Shown here: in pieces, positions 48,669 through 57,459 of the stretch
Layout: the number at the start of each line of letters is the position of its first letter
Position numbering within the stretch: the stretch's first letter is position 1
Source: Algihabitans albus
GTDB lineage: Bacteria; Pseudomonadota; Alphaproteobacteria; Kiloniellales; DSM-21159
NCBI RefSeq assembly: GCF_003572205.1
Contig: NZ_QXNY01000003.1
Location: 124,001 to 188,000 of the forward strand
Reading direction: 5' to 3'
Length of the DNA: 64,000 nucleotides
The notes under the pieces: model-generated
Seen by the model: only the letters and a program-made list of their open reading frames with translations
Told to the model about the DNA's origin: nothing
Database searches by the model: none
Position numbers and translations under genes: made by a program

Positions 48669-49481
48669 ATGCTCCCTCGCCCCCAGACAAAGGCGAAGAC
48701 CGCCCTCGCCCGTGCCCAGATGGCTTTAGCCGCCGGCGACCTACCGGGCGCAGAGGCGATCTTGAGCCGGCATCTGCAGCGCAAGCCGAAAGACGCCGAA
48801 GCGTTAGCCCTGGCCGGCGTGATAGCGCTCCAGCGCGGTGCGACCGGGGAAGCGCAGCGCCGCCTGCGCCGGGCAGCCAAATTGCGACCCGACGATGCCG
48901 CATTGCTCACCAACCTGGGTATCGCCGAAGAGGCGGCCGGGGAGCCCGACGCAGCCGTCGCGAGTTTGACCCGAGCTTGCGCTCTGCGCCCCGACTTCGC
49001 ACAGGCGCTCTATAACCTCGGCATCCTCTTGCGCCGGTTGGAGCGGCCCACTGAGGCGGCTGAGGCCCTGGCGCGAGCCAGCAACCTGGAGCCCGGTCAC
49101 GGTAAAGCCAAGTCGGCCCTGGCCGGTGCCTTGCTCGATGCCGGCCGGTCCGATGAGGCGCTGACCGCAGCCGAACATGCCTTGGAGACGAGCGACGGCG
49201 AAGATATCCGCCTGACCGCAGGACTCGCCGCCAAGACGCTGGGGCGGTGGAAACAGGCTGCGCTGCATCTCGAGCAAGCCGGACAGCGGCCCGAGGCGCT
49301 GTTGGAGCTGGCCCACTGCCGGCAGGAAGCCGGCGAATCGACGGCGGCTCAAACCGCCTATCGCGCCGCCCTCGCTCTCGATCCGAGCCTCTATGCCGCA
49401 GCGGTCAAACGGCTGGTCTCCGCCGCCAAGGGAGAGCTGCCGCTGCGTCCCGCCGCGCTACGCGCCTGGCTCCTCGGCTAG
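48669..49481 (+). CDS. Tetratricopeptide repeat protein
   Basis: 270 residues, almost entirely TPR-like helix pairs of 34 residues starting about residue 12 (ALARAQMALAAGDLPGAEAI, DAEALALAGVIALQRGATGE, AALLTNLGIAEEAAGEPDAA, AQALYNLGILLRRLERPTEA and later repeats). No signal peptide or catalytic domain, so a cytoplasmic scaffold for protein contacts. Partner unknown. Its 3' end overlaps the convergent downstream gene by 24 bases. Confidence 0.88.
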   Translation: MLPRPQTKAKTALARAQMALAAGDLPGAEAILSRHLQRKPKDAEALALAGVIALQRGATGEAQRRLRRAAKLRPDDAALLTNLGIAEEAAGEPDAAVASLTRACALRPDFAQALYNLGILLRRLERPTEAAEALARASNLEPGHGKAKSALAGALLDAGRSDEALTAAEHALETSDGEDIRLTAGLAAKTLGRWKQAALHLEQAGQRPEALLELAHCRQEAGESTAAQTAYRAALALDPSLYAAAVKRLVSAAKGELPLRPAALRAWLLG

Positions 49482-50195
49482 CGGTTCGGCTGTATCGGTC
49501 TGAGCGCGGTAGTGTTTGCGGTAGACGCCCGGCTCTGCGGCCAAGGCGCCTTGCACCTGCGCGAAGGCCGCGGCCGCGGCCTCGTCGAGGGCGGCACAGT
49601 CCAGGTCCAGAGGCTGGCGCGGCACAGGTAAGCACTGCGCCACCGGGGTCCCCTTCGGCAGAACACCGGTGAAATCTGGATCGCGCCAAACGGCCGGAAA
49701 GTGCACGAAGGAATCGGAGAAGCCGTCGCAATCGACCAAACCGGTCAGAGTGGTGAAAGGCAGGTCGGCCCGGTTGACCGGATGCAGGCACAGCAGCGAC
49801 CAGCCGGCCGGCAAGGCGATGGTCCAGAAGGAGTTGAACTTGACGACCAGCGCCTCGGGATCGTGCAGCGGCGAACCGGTGGCCTGCTCCGGGAAATGGC
49901 AGGAAATGGGCGCGCGCGTGTAGGGGCCGGTGGCACCCGGAGGCGGAACCGGCCAGTCCCAGGCAAAGCGACCCGACTCGACCTGCAGATCGCAGGCCAG
50001 CGGCATCACGAAGCCGGCGGACATGGCATCCACGAAGGGCGGGCACTGCTTCACCGTGCGCAGCGAAAACCCGAGATCGTCGGAGAAGGCTTCGCTGGGC
50101 ATGGCTCGCAGCCAATCGGGCAGCGCGCGGCGGGATGGCAGCGGCTGCGGCAGGATCGGCTGCAGCTCGGGCGGACAGCGGAAGGTCACTTTCAT
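49458..50195 (-). CDS. Conserved protein, possibly DUF6065 family (245 aa)
   Basis: 245 residues, soluble. Conserved-looking blocks are PLPSRRALPDWLRAMPSEAF, TVKQCPPFVDAMSAGFVMPL, KFNSFWTIALPAGWSLLCLH followed by PVNRADLPFTTLTGLVD, and PKGTPVAQCLPVPRQ. The pattern of a GW-LL-HP-N stretch followed by a PxGTPxAQxxPVxR strand recalls DUF6065, a family of unknown function; I hold this assignment lightly. The ATG is 15 bases past the stop of the ABC permease gene cluster, so it may be read from the importer promoter. Confidence 0.7.
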   Translation of the reverse strand: MKVTFRCPPELQPILPQPLPSRRALPDWLRAMPSEAFSDDLGFSLRTVKQCPPFVDAMSAGFVMPLACDLQVESGRFAWDWPVPPPGATGPYTRAPISCHFPEQATGSPLHDPEALVVKFNSFWTIALPAGWSLLCLHPVNRADLPFTTLTGLVDCDGFSDSFVHFPAVWRDPDFTGVLPKGTPVAQCLPVPRQPLDLDCAALDEAAAAAFAQVQGALAAEPGVYRKHYRAQTDTAEPLAEEPGA

Positions 50196-50210: not shown

Positions 50211-51149
50211 CTACTGCGCCGGCTGAGGCTGAGGTTGGCCCTGAGGCTGGAGCGCCGGCGACCCGTCGCGACCTCGGTCCAGGCCCGAGGTCATCTCGGC
50301 GTCCGCGCGCTTGGCCGCCTCGATCCTCCGTTCCTCCTCCGCCCGCTCCGCCCGGCGCTTCATCTCCAGGGCAATGGCGGCGACCACCGTAAGGACAATG
50401 AAGATCACCGCCAAGGCGTTGACCTCCGGCGTCAGGCTGAGGCGCGCCATGGAGGCGAGCTGAATGGTCAGCGTGGTCTCACCCCCGATTGCGAAGACCG
50501 TCGTGTTGAAGTTCTCGAAGGACTGCAGGAAGGCAAGCACCGCCGCCGTGAAGATCGTCGGACGCAGGAACGGCAGAGTGATCTTCCAAAAGACCTGACG
50601 ATGGGAGGCACCGAGATCGAGCGCGGCCTCCTCCAGCGCATGATCGAAGCGCTGGAGCCGTGCCATGAAGAGCAGCATGCAGTAAGCCGAGATGAAGGTC
50701 GCCTGCGCCAGAATCGCCAAAAGAAGCCCGCCAGGAACGCCGAGATTGTTCCAGAACACCAGGGTCGAGATGCCGAGGATGATGCCCGGGGTCAGCAGCG
50801 GCGAGACCAGAACGCCGTACAGGAACGTCCGGCCGCGCGTCTTAAGGCGAGTCAGCAGCAGAGCCCCGGACAGTCCCAGCGTGATCGACAGGGCGACGAC
50901 GCCGGCACCGATGATGAGGGAGTTCACCACGGCAGCCCAGATCTGGGCGTTGTCGAAGAGCCGCTCGAACCAGTGGAAGGTCAGTCCCTCGAAGGGAATG
51001 GCCCGCGGGATGCCCGGTTCGTTGAAAGCCGCCACGAACATGAAGATCAGCGGCAGGAACATGTAGCCGAAGAAGATCACCAGGTAACCCTTGACGGCCC
51101 AACGGGTCATGTCCTCGGCCCGAAAGCTCGGCTTCCTGGATCGCGCCAT
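50211..51149 (-). CDS. ABC importer permease, PotC-type
   Basis: 312 residues with six membrane helices and the binding-protein-dependent permease motif EEAALDLGASHRQVFWKITLP near residues 185-205, where the ATPase docks. It continues LRPTIFTAAVLAFLQSFENF. After the last helix it carries an unusual 60-residue charged tail (RRAERAEEERRIEAAKRADA, ending QPQGQPQPQPAQ). ATG at 51149 with GGGAGCAGGGA upstream is chosen over a GTG ten codons earlier. It is the last transport gene of the D-A-B-C operon. Confidence 0.88.
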   Translation of the reverse strand: MARSRKPSFRAEDMTRWAVKGYLVIFFGYMFLPLIFMFVAAFNEPGIPRAIPFEGLTFHWFERLFDNAQIWAAVVNSLIIGAGVVALSITLGLSGALLLTRLKTRGRTFLYGVLVSPLLTPGIILGISTLVFWNNLGVPGGLLLAILAQATFISAYCMLLFMARLQRFDHALEEAALDLGASHRQVFWKITLPFLRPTIFTAAVLAFLQSFENFNTTVFAIGGETTLTIQLASMARLSLTPEVNALAVIFIVLTVVAAIALEMKRRAERAEEERRIEAAKRADAEMTSGLDRGRDGSPALQPQGQPQPQPAQ

Positions 51150-51179
51150 CGTCCCTGCTCCCGCCGGTTCCGTTTCCAC

Positions 51180-52367
51180 CTACTTCGCGATGTCCTGCAG
51201 GCTGACCTTGAACAGACGCATCATGACGAGAATGAAAACGATGCAGGTGGTCAGCAGCGTGAAGGCATAGGCCGAGCCGAGGCCCCAGTCGTTGCCCTCG
51301 TTGAAGGCGTCGTAGATCACCTCGGTGAACCACTTGGAAGTCGTGCCGCCGAGGATCAGAGGGACGGCATAGGAGCCCGCCGCCAACATGAAGGTCATGA
51401 TGCAACCGACGGCAATGCCAGGCTTGGCGTGGGGGATCACCACGCGCAGGTGAATGCGCCACCAGGGCGCCCCCAGATCGCGCGCCGCCTCGATCTGGTT
51501 CCTATCCAGCGTGTCGATGGTATTGTAGATCGGAAAGATCATGAAGAGGATGTAGGCGTAGGTCATGCCGATGATCACGGCGCCGTTGCCCTGACGCCAT
51601 CGGATCGGCTCGCCGATCACACCCAGCGCCAGAAGCAGTTCGTTGATCACGCCTCCATCGGACAACAGCATAAGCCAGGCGAAGGTACGCAGGATCTCAT
51701 TGATCCAGTAAGGCACGATCAACGCCAGCATCAGCAAGGCGGCCTGTTCGCCGGGCGCAGCCTTCGCCAGATAGAAGGCGATCGGGTAGCAGACGATCAG
51801 ACAGATCAGGGTCACCAGCACCGAGGCCCAGATCGTCTTCAGGAAGATCGAGCGGTTCAGATCGTTTTCGACCAGTTCCCGGTAATTGGCGAGACCGTAC
51901 TGCGGCGCAGCGGCCAGCCGCGCCTGTTCCAGGCTCCTATCGTTTTCGGCAATGACAAGGCGATTGCCGTCGATCTGTACCTCAAGGTCGACGATCTCCG
52001 CGCGCAGAGCCTCAGGTGTGGCCGCTGCCGCCTGCTGCCGAGTGCCGGAGGCGAAGGGATTTAGCAGCGTCGCGCCGCCGCGCTGAACCTCGGGATCGGG
52101 TTCGCCCGCCTCGAGGGCCTCGATCCGCGTCCGCAGCCTGCCGACGGCGCGTTCGGCGCGTGTAATCTCTACGAAGAGGCGGTCCGTATTCGCCTGGATC
52201 TGCGCCGCACGCGCGCTGGCGGCCGGGTCGCTGTAGGTCAGCGACTTCTCCAGCATCAGAAGCTGCGGCAGGACGATCATGCCGACCATCCAGATGCCGC
52301 ACCCGAGGAAGATGTAGGCGGTCATGACGCCGCCATAGCGGCGGACGAAATCCTGAACGGCCTGCAT
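51180..52367 (-). CDS. ABC importer permease, PotB-type, with long insert
   Basis: 395 residues. After the first helix (about 14-37) comes an extra soluble stretch of about 110 residues with coiled-coil character (ASARAAQIQANTDRLFVEIT; AERAVGRLRTRIEALEAGEP; LRAEIVDLEVQIDGNRLVIA), absent from E. coli PotB. The other five helices follow, with the ATPase-docking loop EAARDLGAPWWRIHLRVVIP near 290-310. The insert should lie on the periplasmic side and could contact the binding protein (inference). It starts at ATG 52367, 24 bases past the ATPase gene stop. Confidence 0.88.
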   Translation of the reverse strand: MQAVQDFVRRYGGVMTAYIFLGCGIWMVGMIVLPQLLMLEKSLTYSDPAASARAAQIQANTDRLFVEITRAERAVGRLRTRIEALEAGEPDPEVQRGGATLLNPFASGTRQQAAAATPEALRAEIVDLEVQIDGNRLVIAENDRSLEQARLAAAPQYGLANYRELVENDLNRSIFLKTIWASVLVTLICLIVCYPIAFYLAKAAPGEQAALLMLALIVPYWINEILRTFAWLMLLSDGGVINELLLALGVIGEPIRWRQGNGAVIIGMTYAYILFMIFPIYNTIDTLDRNQIEAARDLGAPWWRIHLRVVIPHAKPGIAVGCIMTFMLAAGSYAVPLILGGTTSKWFTEVIYDAFNEGNDWGLGSAYAFTLLTTCIVFILVMMRLFKVSLQDIAK

Positions 52368-52391: not shown

Positions 52392-53504
52392 CTAGGCCGC
52401 CGCCGCGCTGTCGGGGCTTTCGCTCGGCAGAGCGACGGCTGCGTCGGCGGAGAAGCCGATGGTTACCTGCTGTCCCTGCGCGAGCCTCGACAGATCGCGG
52501 TCGTTGGTCAGGTGGACGATTAGACTGCGTCCCTGATCGCCGCGCACAAAGAGGTTGACGTAGGCGCCCTCCAGATCGATGCGCTCCACCTCGCTGACGA
52601 AGGTGTTGTCAGGCAGATTCGTCTCCGGCCGGTCTTCGTCGAGAAGCAGGCAGCGCTCGGGCCGCACGAAAACCGACGCCATCTCGCCCGGCGTCAGATT
52701 TTCCCGATTACGGGCGCGCAAAAGACCGCGAGGCGTCTCGATCGCTGCGCAGCCGTCCGACACGTCGGTCACGCGGCCTGCGAAGCGATTGTTCTCGCCG
52801 ACGAAGGTGGCGACAAAGGCCGTGTGCGGCGCGCTGTAGATCTGGTCTGGCGTACCGACCTGTTCGATCACCCCCTGGGACATCACGCCGACCCGATCCG
52901 ACATCGTCAGGGCTTCGCCTTGATCGTGCGTGATGTAGATGAAGGTAACGCCGGTCTTCTTCTGTATCGCGCGCAGTTCCGCCCTCATGTGTTGGCGCAG
53001 CTTCAGATCGAGCGCGGAGAGCGGCTCGTCCAGCAGCAGCACCTCAGGCTCCACGGCCAGGGCACGGGCAATGGCAACACGCTGGCGCTGGCCGCCCGAC
53101 AGCTCCGTCACCAGCTTGTCGGCTTGATCGGGCAAGGCGATCAGATCCAACAGTTGCTCGGCCCGCTTGCGCCGCTCAGACTTGCCGATCCCACGTACTT
53201 CCAGACCGAAGGCTATGTTCTCCCAGACTTTCATCAGCGGAAAGAGCGCCAGATTCTGAAAGATCAGGGCGGTCGGGCGCTTGTTCGGCCCGAGGCCGGC
53301 CATATCCCGACCGCCGATCCGCACGACGCCTTCGCTCGGCTCGATAAAGCCTGAGACCATGCGCAAAATAGTCGTCTTCCCGCAGCCGGATGGGCCGAGG
53401 AAGGAGAAGAACTCACCGCTGCGAATGGTCAGGTCGGCGTCGCGAACAGCTGTGAAGTCACCGAACCGCATGGTGACGCGGTCCAGTTCGACATCCATGC
53501 CCAT
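52392..53504 (-). CDS. ABC importer ATP-binding protein, PotA-type
   Basis: 370 residues. Walker A GPSGCGKTT near 38-46, signature LSGGQRQRVAIARALA near 135-150, Walker B VLLLDEPLSALD near 155-166, and the H-loop in YITHDQGEALT; a C-terminal TOBE domain follows (about 280-350). Typical of the spermidine/putrescine/iron/2-aminoethylphosphonate ATPase cluster. The start at 53504 (MGMDVELDRVTMRFGDFTAV) has GGGAGG six bases upstream; the longer frame upstream is unsupported. It lies 131 bases after the binding-protein gene. Confidence 0.92.
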   Translation of the reverse strand: MGMDVELDRVTMRFGDFTAVRDADLTIRSGEFFSFLGPSGCGKTTILRMVSGFIEPSEGVVRIGGRDMAGLGPNKRPTALIFQNLALFPLMKVWENIAFGLEVRGIGKSERRKRAEQLLDLIALPDQADKLVTELSGGQRQRVAIARALAVEPEVLLLDEPLSALDLKLRQHMRAELRAIQKKTGVTFIYITHDQGEALTMSDRVGVMSQGVIEQVGTPDQIYSAPHTAFVATFVGENNRFAGRVTDVSDGCAAIETPRGLLRARNRENLTPGEMASVFVRPERCLLLDEDRPETNLPDNTFVSEVERIDLEGAYVNLFVRGDQGRSLIVHLTNDRDLSRLAQGQQVTIGFSADAAVALPSESPDSAAAA

Positions 53505-53635: not shown

Positions 53636-54796
53636 TCAGGCCGTCTCGTAGCGAGTGATGTACTCCGCACGCAGCTTCTGGAACCAGCCGGGCTCCGGCT
53701 TCCACCAATAGAGCTGCGAGATGGCCTCGCCGTTGGGGCCATACATGAACTTGAAGCGCTCCTGCGCTGCCTCGTCCAGCGCGGCCTCGGCCCCGATCGC
53801 GGCCGAGTTGTAGCCGGCGTGCGACGCATGCATGCCGCCGCCTTCGGCGGACGTCAGCCAGTTGATCAGTTCATAGGCCTGATCGACGTTGGCGGCGCCG
53901 GAGGGCATGCACATGGTGTCGAGCCAGGTCAGAGCACCGTCGGTCGGCGCGACGTACTTGATGCGGCCGTCGGTCTCCTTCCACATATTGACCGCCGTCC
54001 CGTCCCAGCTCTGGCCGATCACGCAACCGTCGGACAGGAAGGCACCGGTCAGCGCCTGGGCGTCTTTCCAGAAGGTTCGGATCCAGGGCTTATGCTCGAC
54101 TGCGAAGGCAAGGGCCTGATCGAGAACCTTTTTGGCAGTCTCCTCGTCCTGGTGGGCCTTGTCCATCATCTCGCCGGTTCCGTCGATCATCACGCCCATG
54201 GCGGTCAGGCCGGAGCGCGGACGCACGGTGACGAGATCGCGGTTATCTTCCTGCCAGATCGTGCTCCAGGACACGTCGCCGTACTTCAGGTCGCGCTGGC
54301 TGCTGTCGAAGGCGACGGCCTCGGTCCCCCAGTTGAAGGGAACGCCGAACCGCTGACCGCGGCGGGAGGCACCGAGGTCGAGAGACTTGTCCCAGATCGC
54401 CGGCTGCACCTGATCGGCCATGACGCGGTTCTCGTCGATCGGCTGGAGCAGATCGACTCCGTCTTCTTCGCTGGCATCGAACCAGGAGACCAGCGTGGTG
54501 ACGGAGGGGAACACCAGGTCGAAACCCTCGCCCTTGGCCGCACGGACCTTGGACAGCACCTCGTTGTTGGTGCCGTAGACGGAGAGATTGATCTGGATAC
54601 CCGTACGTTCCTTGAAGGTCGCGATCATGTCCTCGGAGACGTACTCGCCCCAGGCATAGACGTCGACCTCGCCCGAGGAAGCGAGTGCGCGCGGGCTGAT
54701 GATGGCGGGCGCTGCCACGATGGCTGCACCGGCTGCAGCGCCTTTGAGCAGGCTGCGACGAGTCACCAAGCGACGCGAAGTATGGCTGTGAGACAC
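53636..54796 (-). CDS. ABC importer substrate-binding protein, PotD-type, Tat-exported
   Basis: 386 residues. The N terminus carries a twin-arginine signal (LVTRRSLLKGAAAGAAIVAA, cleavage likely after ALA near residue 40), so it is folded before export. The mature part is a PotD/PotF-like two-lobe protein: EVDVYAWGEYVSEDMIATFK, FDLVFPSVTTLVSWF, and VPFNWGTEAVAFDSS. Polyamine or related amine is the usual substrate of this family; 2-aminoethylphosphonate binding proteins belong to the same superfamily. GTG start at 54796 behind GGGGGA. A Pho-box-like promoter lies upstream at 54939-54983, questioning a simple polyamine role. Confidence 0.88.
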   Translation of the reverse strand: MSHSHTSRRLVTRRSLLKGAAAGAAIVAAPAIISPRALASSGEVDVYAWGEYVSEDMIATFKERTGIQINLSVYGTNNEVLSKVRAAKGEGFDLVFPSVTTLVSWFDASEEDGVDLLQPIDENRVMADQVQPAIWDKSLDLGASRRGQRFGVPFNWGTEAVAFDSSQRDLKYGDVSWSTIWQEDNRDLVTVRPRSGLTAMGVMIDGTGEMMDKAHQDEETAKKVLDQALAFAVEHKPWIRTFWKDAQALTGAFLSDGCVIGQSWDGTAVNMWKETDGRIKYVAPTDGALTWLDTMCMPSGAANVDQAYELINWLTSAEGGGMHASHAGYNSAAIGAEAALDEAAQERFKFMYGPNGEAISQLYWWKPEPGWFQKLRAEYITRYETA

Positions 54797-55293
54797 GGTG
54801 ATATCCCCCTTCCCTGTATAGACTGTTCTTTCAAACGGCAGGCTGCTGTCGTTCCGCGGAAACCCATGCCTCCAGACTGGATACGATACGCATCACCCGA
54901 CAGGACAGATACGCCCCATCGGTGACAGGTTGATCGGAGTTATGCGTCGCGTCCATGACGAATATATGACAGAAAAGTTACATATAACGCGTGGGGATGT
55001 GAATAAATGCGCAACGCCGCGCCAAGGCTGTACGGGTCCCCAGCATCACCTCGATCGCCTCGACTCCGAACAAAATACTGTGATCCAGCTCCGCCGATTT
55101 GGAACTCGCGCCGGCCGGGCGATCGCGAGGGATCTAACGCCGCCAGGACAACACCATCCGCCCTCGCATCCTCCTCGGATTCCGGGCGCCGGCCTCCGCA
55201 AGCGTCGTTCCGATGGATCAGGCGCCCGCCATCCACCAAAACCCAAATTGCATCGCCACGTGAAAGCAAGCCACAACCCAGAGCGCCGGCGCC
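54797..55293. other. Intergenic region upstream of the importer operon
   Basis: 497 bases between the binding-protein gene and the TonB receptor stop. The part at 54955-55010 is AT-rich and holds the Pho-box-like promoter. I see no gene: the short readings at 54930-55293 are Arg/Pro-rich shadows without ribosome sites. No convincing terminator for the receptor gene is visible. Confidence 0.6.
54939..54983 (-). promoter_or_regulatory. Pho-box-like promoter of the Pot-type operon
   Basis: On the minus strand three 7-mers, ATGTAAC, CTGTCAT and TCGTCAT (54983 down to 54955), follow each other with spacers TTTT and ATAT, an 11-base period. The middle one is the exact PhoB half-site. Ten bases after the last comes CATAAC (54944-54939), a -10-like hexamer at the spacing found in PhoB-activated promoters. 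The first gene starts at 54796. Confidence 0.6.
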
Positions 55294-57459
55294 CTAGAAC
55301 ACGCGGCTGTAACGGAGTCCGACGGTTCGACCGAAACCGTTGACCGGGCGGTTGCGCGACGCGCTTGCCGTAGGGTTCTCGTAGTCCGTATCCAGAAGAT
55401 TCTCGACACCGACGCCGAGATTGCCCCCGAACACAGGATAGTCGGCGGCGAAATTGAAAGTGATGGTGTTCTCGATCTCGACCCGCTCAACCCCATCGTT
55501 CCGGTCGCGCGCGCCGGAGTAGACAGCCTCCAGACGAAGATCGAGATCGAAGTCGGTCTTGTAGTCGACGTAACCGGTCAAACGAAGCGGTGGTCCGATA
55601 CGGTTGTTTGGCAGATAGGAGTCCAGTTGCCCGTCGTCGTCGGTGTCCCGCTTTCCCTCGCTCCAGGAGAATACGCCACCGAGTGTCAAGCGATCGGTCA
55701 CGTCACCTTCCAGAACGGCTTCGACGCCGACGATACGCTCCTCCTGCTGGACCACCTCGTTCGTCGAGACATCGAAGTTCGTTCCCAGTTCGGACTGACT
55801 GAGGTAGCCCGAGAGACTGCCGCGGAGACGATTCCAGTTTCCGCGGACTCCGATCTCGTAGTTGTCGACCAGCTGAGCCTCCGGAGCGATATCGGAAAAA
55901 TCGACCGTGCCGCCGAAAGGCAGGTTCTGGCCGGCGCGACGCGTGAAACCGCCGACGTCGGGCAGGGAGTAACCCTGCGAGAAAGCGCCGAAGACCTCAA
56001 CTTCGTCAGTCAGAAAGACGACGGCACCAAGGTTGAACACGAGTTCGTCGTAGGACGTATCGCCACCGACCACGTCGACAGGGGCCAGCGTGAAGACCGC
56101 GCCGTTGCCCTGCAGGAAACGGTAACTGGGCCGCGTGAAGTCATCGATCTCGAGATCGAAGCGTTCGTAGCGAACGCCGCCACGGACCAGCAGCCAGTCC
56201 AGGGGCGAAACCTCGGCCTGCAGAAAGCCCGCATAGCTGTTCTGGCTCATGGGTGCGATAGCCTCGACACCGTCTTGGAATTCCTGTGTTGTCTCATCGT
56301 AGGTGTAGTCGAACCCCCAGGTCAGGGTCAGACTTTCGTAAATCTCGTCGAGTTTGGTATCGACGGTCGTTCGGATACCGAGTTGATCTGCATTGAAGGT
56401 CGTCTGCCCGTCTTCCTGCGAGATGTAGACCAAGGTATTGGCGGCGGAGAGCCGGGCGTCGGCAAAGCGCTTTTCGATGTCGTTGCGGAAGGCCCGGACC
56501 GTGAGACTACCGAGGGGAAAATCGCCATCCGTGAATTCGACGGCTTGATAGTTGGAGTCTTCGTAGATGTTTCGGCCGGTGTAGGGTGCGGAGAAGTCGA
56601 CGCTCGCCGGCTCTGTCGAATAGTCGGTGAAGAAATCCGGATCCTGATCGAACCGCGTCACCTCTGCGCTGACTTGCAGTCGTCGGGAGCCGAAGTCCCG
56701 TCCCAGCTTGATCAACCCATTGTAGGACTCGCTGTTCCCGAAGGCGCCTTGACCGAGCAGCGGGTCGTCGGGCAAGCGATCGCCGTTGCCATCGAAAGTC
56801 TCATTTGTCGCTTCGGCGGAGATAACGGCGAAATAGTCGAAGAGTTCCGCGTCTCCCGAGATTCCAACGGAGGCCTCCGGCGCCAACGAGTCCTCGACGT
56901 CGGCCGTAAAGGCGCGCAGGCCGACGCTGGCGGTCACGGTCGGAGCGCCGTCCGTCGAGTCTTTGGTGATGAAGTTGACGATCCCGCCGGTAGCGCCGTT
57001 GCCGTAGATGCTGCTGGCGCCATTGACGATCTCGATCCTTTCGATCTGGTTGAGATCGATCAGCGAGATAATGCGAGAAACATCGCGCAGAGGCGTGTTG
57101 CGCGACACCCCGTCGACGAGCACCTGCACGCCGCGCCCACGGAAATTTTCCGCAGAACCGGAAACCGTCTGGTTGCTGGACGAGAAACCCGGTACGAGCT
57201 TGGAGAGGATATCGGTTGGGTCCTTCGAGATCGAAAGTTGCTGTTCGATCTGCTGCCGGTCGATGACGATGACCGAGCCTGGAATTGCAGAGACAGGGCG
57301 CGGTGCTCGGGTCGCCGTATTGACAATCGGCTCCAATGCCATGGTCTGCCCGGCAGAGGCCTCGAAAGGTACTTCCTGCGCGGAGCTGCCACCAGCCGCT
57401 GAGAGCAGTGCGGCCGTCAAGACGACGGCGAATTTGTGGTGTATTCGACCGATACCCAT
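55294..57459 (-). CDS. TonB-dependent outer-membrane receptor
   Basis: 721 residues. A signal peptide (about 1-28, ending GGSSAQE) is followed by the plug domain (about 45-160: LSKLVPGFSSSNQTVSGSAE; RGRGVQVLVDGVSRNTPLRD; VNGASSIYGNGATGGIVNFI) and a 22-strand barrel ending NGFGRTVGLRYSRVF, with the terminal aromatic needed for outer-membrane assembly. LGVGVENLLDTDYENPTA is the usual penultimate motif. It resembles ferric-siderophore receptors, but the ligand is unknown; no siderophore genes are near. ATG at 57459 follows TGAGGT. A Fur-like palindrome lies upstream at 57689-57709. Confidence 0.92.
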   Translation of the reverse strand: MGIGRIHHKFAVVLTAALLSAAGGSSAQEVPFEASAGQTMALEPIVNTATRAPRPVSAIPGSVIVIDRQQIEQQLSISKDPTDILSKLVPGFSSSNQTVSGSAENFRGRGVQVLVDGVSRNTPLRDVSRIISLIDLNQIERIEIVNGASSIYGNGATGGIVNFITKDSTDGAPTVTASVGLRAFTADVEDSLAPEASVGISGDAELFDYFAVISAEATNETFDGNGDRLPDDPLLGQGAFGNSESYNGLIKLGRDFGSRRLQVSAEVTRFDQDPDFFTDYSTEPASVDFSAPYTGRNIYEDSNYQAVEFTDGDFPLGSLTVRAFRNDIEKRFADARLSAANTLVYISQEDGQTTFNADQLGIRTTVDTKLDEIYESLTLTWGFDYTYDETTQEFQDGVEAIAPMSQNSYAGFLQAEVSPLDWLLVRGGVRYERFDLEIDDFTRPSYRFLQGNGAVFTLAPVDVVGGDTSYDELVFNLGAVVFLTDEVEVFGAFSQGYSLPDVGGFTRRAGQNLPFGGTVDFSDIAPEAQLVDNYEIGVRGNWNRLRGSLSGYLSQSELGTNFDVSTNEVVQQEERIVGVEAVLEGDVTDRLTLGGVFSWSEGKRDTDDDGQLDSYLPNNRIGPPLRLTGYVDYKTDFDLDLRLEAVYSGARDRNDGVERVEIENTITFNFAADYPVFGGNLGVGVENLLDTDYENPTASASRNRPVNGFGRTVGLRYSRVF

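Follow-up and report, generated by a model that had tools for sequence, protein, structure and literature searches.

The spermidine and putrescine importers of E. coli, PotABCD and PotFGHI, share with the transporter described here a fold, the subunit types and the residues in the amine half of the binding pocket. Unlike them, the importer has R192 and S195 in place of the acidic Asp168 and Glu171, a twin-arginine signal, a longer B subunit, a fifth gene and a Pho box. ABC importers of amino-phosphorus compounds have also been described. AepXVW and AepSTU are reported to import 2-aminoethylphosphonate (2-AEP), AepX to depend on PhoBR under Pi depletion in P. putida, and both 2-AEP-binding proteins, AepX and AepS, to belong to pfam13343 (PMC8316502). 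The binding proteins of AepXVW, AepSTU and PhnSTUV are of the pfam13343 type, whereas the one examined here is matched best by SBP_bac_8 and PotD models.

An experimental precedent for PhoB control of a PotD-annotated protein comes from Phaeobacter sp. MED193. In Table 1 of the study, the 'PotA' and 'PotD' genes MED193_11419 and MED193_11424 have values of 2.64 and 2.59 at low phosphorus and show no rise in a phoB mutant (-0.29 and -0.10) (PMC10132767). The pair, a putative counterpart of our importer, has a PotD-like annotation, an ATPase under the adjoining locus tag and dependence on phoB. That table was the nearest precedent: titles and abstract openings in the open literature yielded no report of a Pho-boxed, PotD-like organophosphorus importer, and the available portions of papers on S. 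meliloti and Caulobacter contained nothing on such an importer.

The operon and its upstream array

The window, a 64,000-nucleotide stretch of the Algihabitans albus genome, carries the following features of the importer operon and its upstream region.

53636..54796, minus strand: PotD-fold substrate-binding protein with a twin-arginine signal and the R192xxS195 signature (models, alignment, structure prediction)
52392..53504, minus strand: ABC ATPase, PotA/PhnT2-like (putative start; the open frame extends to 53708)
51180..52367, minus strand: permease B, which exceeds PotB by about 110 residues close to its N-terminus
50211..51179, minus strand: permease C
49458..50195, minus strand: fifth gene, c6, after permease C, predicted to encode a divergent dUTPase-fold protein
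54955..54983, minus strand: Pho box of three strong units, ATGTAAC/CTGTCAT/TCGTCAT, in an 11-base register (unit matrix and shuffles)
54922..54950, minus strand: continuation of the array, GCGACGC/CTCCGAT/CTGTCAC, with a strong last unit (six-unit scores and gap-free sister alignment)
54939..54944, minus strand: CATAAC, 10 bases past the third unit, previously proposed as a -10 element; not conserved in sister genomes
54907..54912, minus strand: candidate -10 element GTATCT, at a distance of 9 bases from the last unit (four genomes conserve the GGGCGTA block)

An earlier note on this DNA had described the binding protein as Tat-exported and had set the transporter apart from standard PotABCD by an insert in the B subunit and a charged tail of the C subunit. 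The first two withstood comparison. Residues R13, R14 and L17 of the twin-arginine motif are invariant in a 13-row alignment; permease B has 395 residues against 275 in E. coli PotB, and many, not all, of 73 homologous B matches are similarly long. In permease C the charged tail can be read from the sequence. A gene for a TonB-dependent receptor (55294-57459) lies upstream on the operon's own strand. A TPR protein gene (48669-49481, plus strand) is convergent with the operon, and several of the homologous loci also have a TPR gene close to the transporter.

The three 7-mers of the Pho-box-like array, reported as standing in an 11-base register with 4-base spacers, are present as the note had described them, on the minus strand (ATGTAAC at 54977-54983, CTGTCAT at 54966-54972 and TCGTCAT at 54955-54961). 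The array is longer than had been recognized, with six units in a single 11-base register that reaches down to 54922; its middle units are weak and its last, CTGTCAC, occupies 54922-54928. The assignment of CATAAC as the -10 element found no support: the sequence does lie 10 bases beyond the box, but reads CGGAAC and CAGAAC in sister genomes G002 and G001, respectively. We infer that GTATCT is the more likely -10 element; a sigma-70 scan of 54780-55300 found no promoter-like site.

Strength and conservation of the Pho box

The array was scored with a matrix of 7-base units and free spacers, trained on 18 sites upstream of pstS genes from the order to which the window belongs, none of them from its genus. 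Twelve of the 30 pstS loci were set aside, seven for want of a good sense-strand array, three as near duplicates and two as members of the same genus; as the training sites had been chosen for the closest fit to the textbook consensus, the matrix leans towards it. Against a background of 20 stretches of 20 kb (400 kb) from the same genome, searched on both strands, the three strong units scored 26.5 bits, compared with 23.2 for the genome's own pstS box and a background maximum of 16.0, and none of 2,000 dinucleotide shuffles of the intergenic region equalled the score. Scored over six units, the array reached 26.9 bits (27.8 in G002 and 17.6 in G001), the background maximum being 2.1. The genome's own pstS box, GTGTCAT-GCGTAAT-CCGTAGT, uses the same 7-mer units and 11-base register typical of pstS-type Pho boxes and is made up of three units only (six-unit score -7.6), whereas the importer array has six with a weak middle. 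In a whole-genome search with a pattern tailored to the site, it was the sole place without mismatches among 27 with at most three; the backwards control gave 18.

A PhoB-type array is thus well supported, and where it ranks among the genome's own boxes varies with the scoring method. A second profile built from these pstS sites, rigid and 29 bases long, also weighs the spacers and the pstS-type third unit. At E ≤ 10 its whole-genome list, for which 150 of 340 first-look candidates were scored, contained three other places (13.6, 13.1 for pstS, and 11.7 bits) and not the site, which came first within the window alone (8.4 bits, E 0.29). The comparison with pstS proposed earlier has a divided outcome: the unit matrix puts the site above the genome's own pstS, and the rigid profile leaves it off the list. 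We count this lower rank against our main reading. The pstS gene itself was recognized by TIGR02136 at 144.2 bits, below the cut-off of 206.6; phoR, pstCAB, phoU and phoB are present in one locus (L202), as read by eye from open reading frames rather than by models.

Loss of the 11-base repeats in close relatives had been named as a test of the site. The array aligns without gaps across this genome and both sisters. G002, whose binding protein is 96% identical, keeps all three strong units, and G001 keeps the register with degenerate units; the three upstream units of G001 are weak alone, with a best three-unit score of 13.0, a value met four times in the background. The best conserved block, around CTCCGATCAACCTGTCAC to GGGCGTAT, can still be made out in G010, which belongs to the family but is more distant. 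We conclude that the regulatory site is genuine and that it is conserved across the genus.

The idea of an oddity confined to one genome is not supported, since other alphaproteobacteria have related loci with boxes. The homologous loci examined, all from named organisms, were the best 80 of 564 confirmed relatives, and 78 were testable for boxes, two having too little upstream sequence. Two-unit arrays of at least 14 bits by the unit matrix occurred upstream on the sense strand in 22 of 78 loci, on the antisense strand in 8 of 78, and within genes in none. Clear examples are those of Pseudovibrio axinellae (CTGTCATgggtCTGTCAT), Jiella pelagia (CTGTCATcgcgCTGTCAT) and a Hyphomicrobiales metagenome-assembled genome (CTGTCATgaaaCTGTAATctgcGCGTAAC). 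With two or three units allowed, 26 of 78 reached the threshold; the other 52, which include the two nearest relatives outside the genus, had no box at 14 bits. Both these 52 loci and the eight antisense matches are counted against the main reading. At the threshold used, the tree requires at least 16 changes of the box trait, suggesting that Pho control comes and goes. Together, the matrix score, the shuffles, the sense-strand bias in homologues and the conservation in sister genomes bear out the proposal of PhoB-type control, and PhoB very likely controls the transporter.

The genome has 13 other SBP_bac_8 loci, 8 of which were scored for boxes over 600 bases. Of these eight, a PhnS2-like one alone reaches 14 bits; two PotD/PotF-like loci score 1.7 and 4.7. 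The PhnS2-like locus (L213, 9619-10715; C2, about 851.6-852.7 kb) is a second Pho-boxed importer, a binding protein and permease behind TTGTCATgaaaCTGTCGT, with a two-unit box of 19.0 bits and a PhnS2-like match of 113 bits, below the cut-off of 393. Elsewhere, a Phn-HD phosphonate oxygenase is encoded at L201, 10154-11073 (C1, about 56.15-57.07 kb; 232.6 bits, cut-off 214.6). A strong Pho box, CTGTCATgaaaCTGTAAT, lies beyond the 3' end of this gene, between convergent genes as called.

The binding protein and the fifth gene

The predicted structure of the binding protein (mean pLDDT 88.4) has the PotD/PotF fold, with matches to a PotF variant (7oyu; Z 34.4, rmsd 2.5, 320 aligned) and to 1pot (Z 32.5, rmsd 3.5, 319 aligned); GABA and opine receptors are among the structural neighbours that rank below the PotD group. 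The protein misses the equivalog cut-offs for PotD and PotF (90.5 versus 582 and 80.2 versus 636 bits). SBP_bac_8 is its best Pfam match, and PF13343 is second with 35 bits (cut-off 24.6).

In line with the earlier note, the pocket lacks the full polyamine-binding residue set. PotD W34, E36, Y37, W255 and D257 all have counterparts, and the half of the pocket in common with PotD comprises W49, E51, Y52, W264, W291 and D293. The stretch corresponding to PotD Asp168 and Glu171, the acidic residues that hold the second amine, reads RPRSGLTA, so that R192 and S195 stand where the acidic region has been lost; no acidic counterpart of these two residues was found in the clade. Arg192, Ser195, E159 and N330 are invariant in all of the best 80 of 564 homologues and in 6 of 6 plasmid-borne homologues. 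For Q262 and W264, part of the conservation seen across the 80 loci follows from the scan patterns, which contained both residues. Neither PotD nor PotF has R192, and the two PotD/PotF-like paralogues in the same genome, which keep the acidic type, lack it as well; PotF does have a serine at 195. By DSSP a helix starts at 193, directly after R192, a setting common for anion sites; from the alignment we infer that R192 occupies a ligand-facing position. R149 was considered as a further signature residue and rejected, because three homologues on roseobacter plasmids have Val or Ala there.

The fifth gene, c6, starts 15 bases past permease C and encodes a 245-residue product for which neither Pfam nor NCBIfam gave a match at E ≤ 1e-3. 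The product does match phrog_7084, a group without known function, and relatives occur in 49 phage records; the names of 48 of these refer to Halorubrum, Haloarcula or halophage. Structural modelling (pLDDT 90.0; best Foldseek match E 1.3e-4) assigns c6 a trimeric-dUTPase fold: all 50 matches listed in the structure comparison are dUTPases, the best listed having Z 10.0 and rmsd 3.3 over 115 aligned residues. GLVDCD and GTPVAQ in its sequence resemble dUTPase motifs 3 and 4. By tblastn, c6 is encoded near the transporter in 24 of the 80 homologous loci.

Neighbourhoods and the imported compound

Neighbours were counted by tblastn with one representative each, within the fetched stretches of the 80 loci; the ATPase was the sole representative with a match in the 400-kb background, a limited control drawn from one genome. 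A PehA-like phosphoric/sulfuric ester hydrolase was found in 10 of 80 loci, an Na/Pi transporter in 6 of 80 (13 in union) and a CehA/PHP metallohydrolase in 8 of 80. PehA-like genes also stand beside family members in G010 and in Aliiroseovarius (L039 and L212), and in Leisingera (L208) an Na/Pi transporter and a HisN/inositol-phosphatase-type gene do so. The scanned PehA matches (447-563 bits) all fall below the model cut-off of 900. Counted against our main reading are the absence of any recognized phosphoesterase beside the transporter operon in the window, and the ability of PehA-type enzymes to cut sulfate esters too. A tie between the operon and a PehA in the same genome was rejected: one near full-length relative lies on C2, below the cut-off and with no upstream Pho box. 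Thirteen loci, all of them without a box, have MocR-like regulators; such proteins bind PLP and in most cases respond to amines, and as neighbours they would fit an amine ligand. Boxes occurred in 16 of 23 loci with c6 and 10 of 55 without (Fisher 3.3e-5), and in 0 of 13 loci with MocR and 26 of 65 without (Fisher 0.0035). A link of the box with c6, or its exclusion of MocR, was discarded, neither being significant after shared descent was considered (2-3 independent contrasts).

The changed pocket and part of the neighbourhoods point to an amine-bearing phosphorus compound. We consider it reasonably probable that the operon encodes a PhoB-activated ABC importer of a small zwitterionic organophosphorus compound bearing an amine, for example an aminophosphonate or a phosphodiester with an amine headgroup, rather than of a polyamine. 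The earlier suggestion of a phosphorus-bearing amine agrees with the exchange to Arg and Ser and with the phosphoesterases that adjoin some homologues; a phosphodiester, a 2-AEP-like compound and a phosphocholine-type headgroup are candidate solutes. A strict 2-AEP transporter, analogous to AepXVW or PhnSTUV, seems unlikely, albeit worth taking seriously. PhnT2 is the closest NCBIfam model to the ATPase (345.7 bits, below the cut-off of 457.7), and the genome has a Phn-HD oxygenase near another Pho box. However, neither PhnS nor PhnS2 models match the binding protein at E ≤ 1e-3, the second Pho-boxed importer, itself under the PhnS2 cut-off, is the better candidate for that role, and no phosphonate genes were noticed in a non-systematic look at neighbour clusters.

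PhoB could instead control the import of a phosphorus-free amine, such as a polyamine or betaine, as a nitrogen source, as a counter-ion or for phosphorus-free lipids during starvation. The PotD/PotF fold, the retained amine half of the pocket and the strong box in this genome would all suit such a role, which we nevertheless judge rather improbable, given that the acidic residues that hold the second amine in PotD lack acidic counterparts throughout the clade and that esterase and Na/Pi neighbours accompany part of the family. Less probable again is a zwitterionic solute ending in a carboxylate or sulfate (similar to GABA, an opine or choline sulfate), for which Pho control would be a local addition; the GABA and opine receptors among the lower structural neighbours, the sulfate-ester activity of the PehA class and the many unboxed homologues favour it, whereas the recurrence of sense-strand boxes in distant branches of the tree and the Na/Pi neighbours do not. 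Several members of the OmpR/PhoB family bind direct repeats of 10-11 bases, and one of these might bind the array in place of PhoB; we regard this as very improbable, in that a matrix trained only on pstS boxes picked out the array and the genome has a pst cluster.

Under our preferred reading of an organophosphorus-amine importer, phosphorylated PhoB would bind the six-unit array at low phosphate and switch on the binding protein, the ATPase, both permeases and the dUTPase-fold partner, presumably from the promoter described above. The amine end of the solute would sit in the PotD-like half of the pocket (W49, E51, Y52, W264, W291 and D293), and its phosphorus end could lie at a putative anion site formed by R192 and the N-terminal end of the next helix, with S195. 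A broader proposal, which we hold to be doubtful, is that the whole family of 'spermidine/putrescine importers' consists of unrecognized organophosphorus importers of the Pho regulon, partnered by a cytoplasmic hydrolase whose dUTPase fold was recruited for phosphorus scavenging. The substrate of this partner could then be the imported compound itself, perhaps a headgroup linked to a nucleotide or pyrophosphate, for instance a CDP-amine or glycerophospho-amine.

Surveys based on PotD-type annotation would assign such genes to polyamine uptake. Should the genes serve to import organic phosphorus, these surveys would count too much polyamine uptake and miss a way in which alphaproteobacteria scavenge organic phosphorus. 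The combination of R192xxS195, E159 and N330 offers a simple handle for re-annotation, and makes the phoB-dependent Phaeobacter 'PotD' directly testable.
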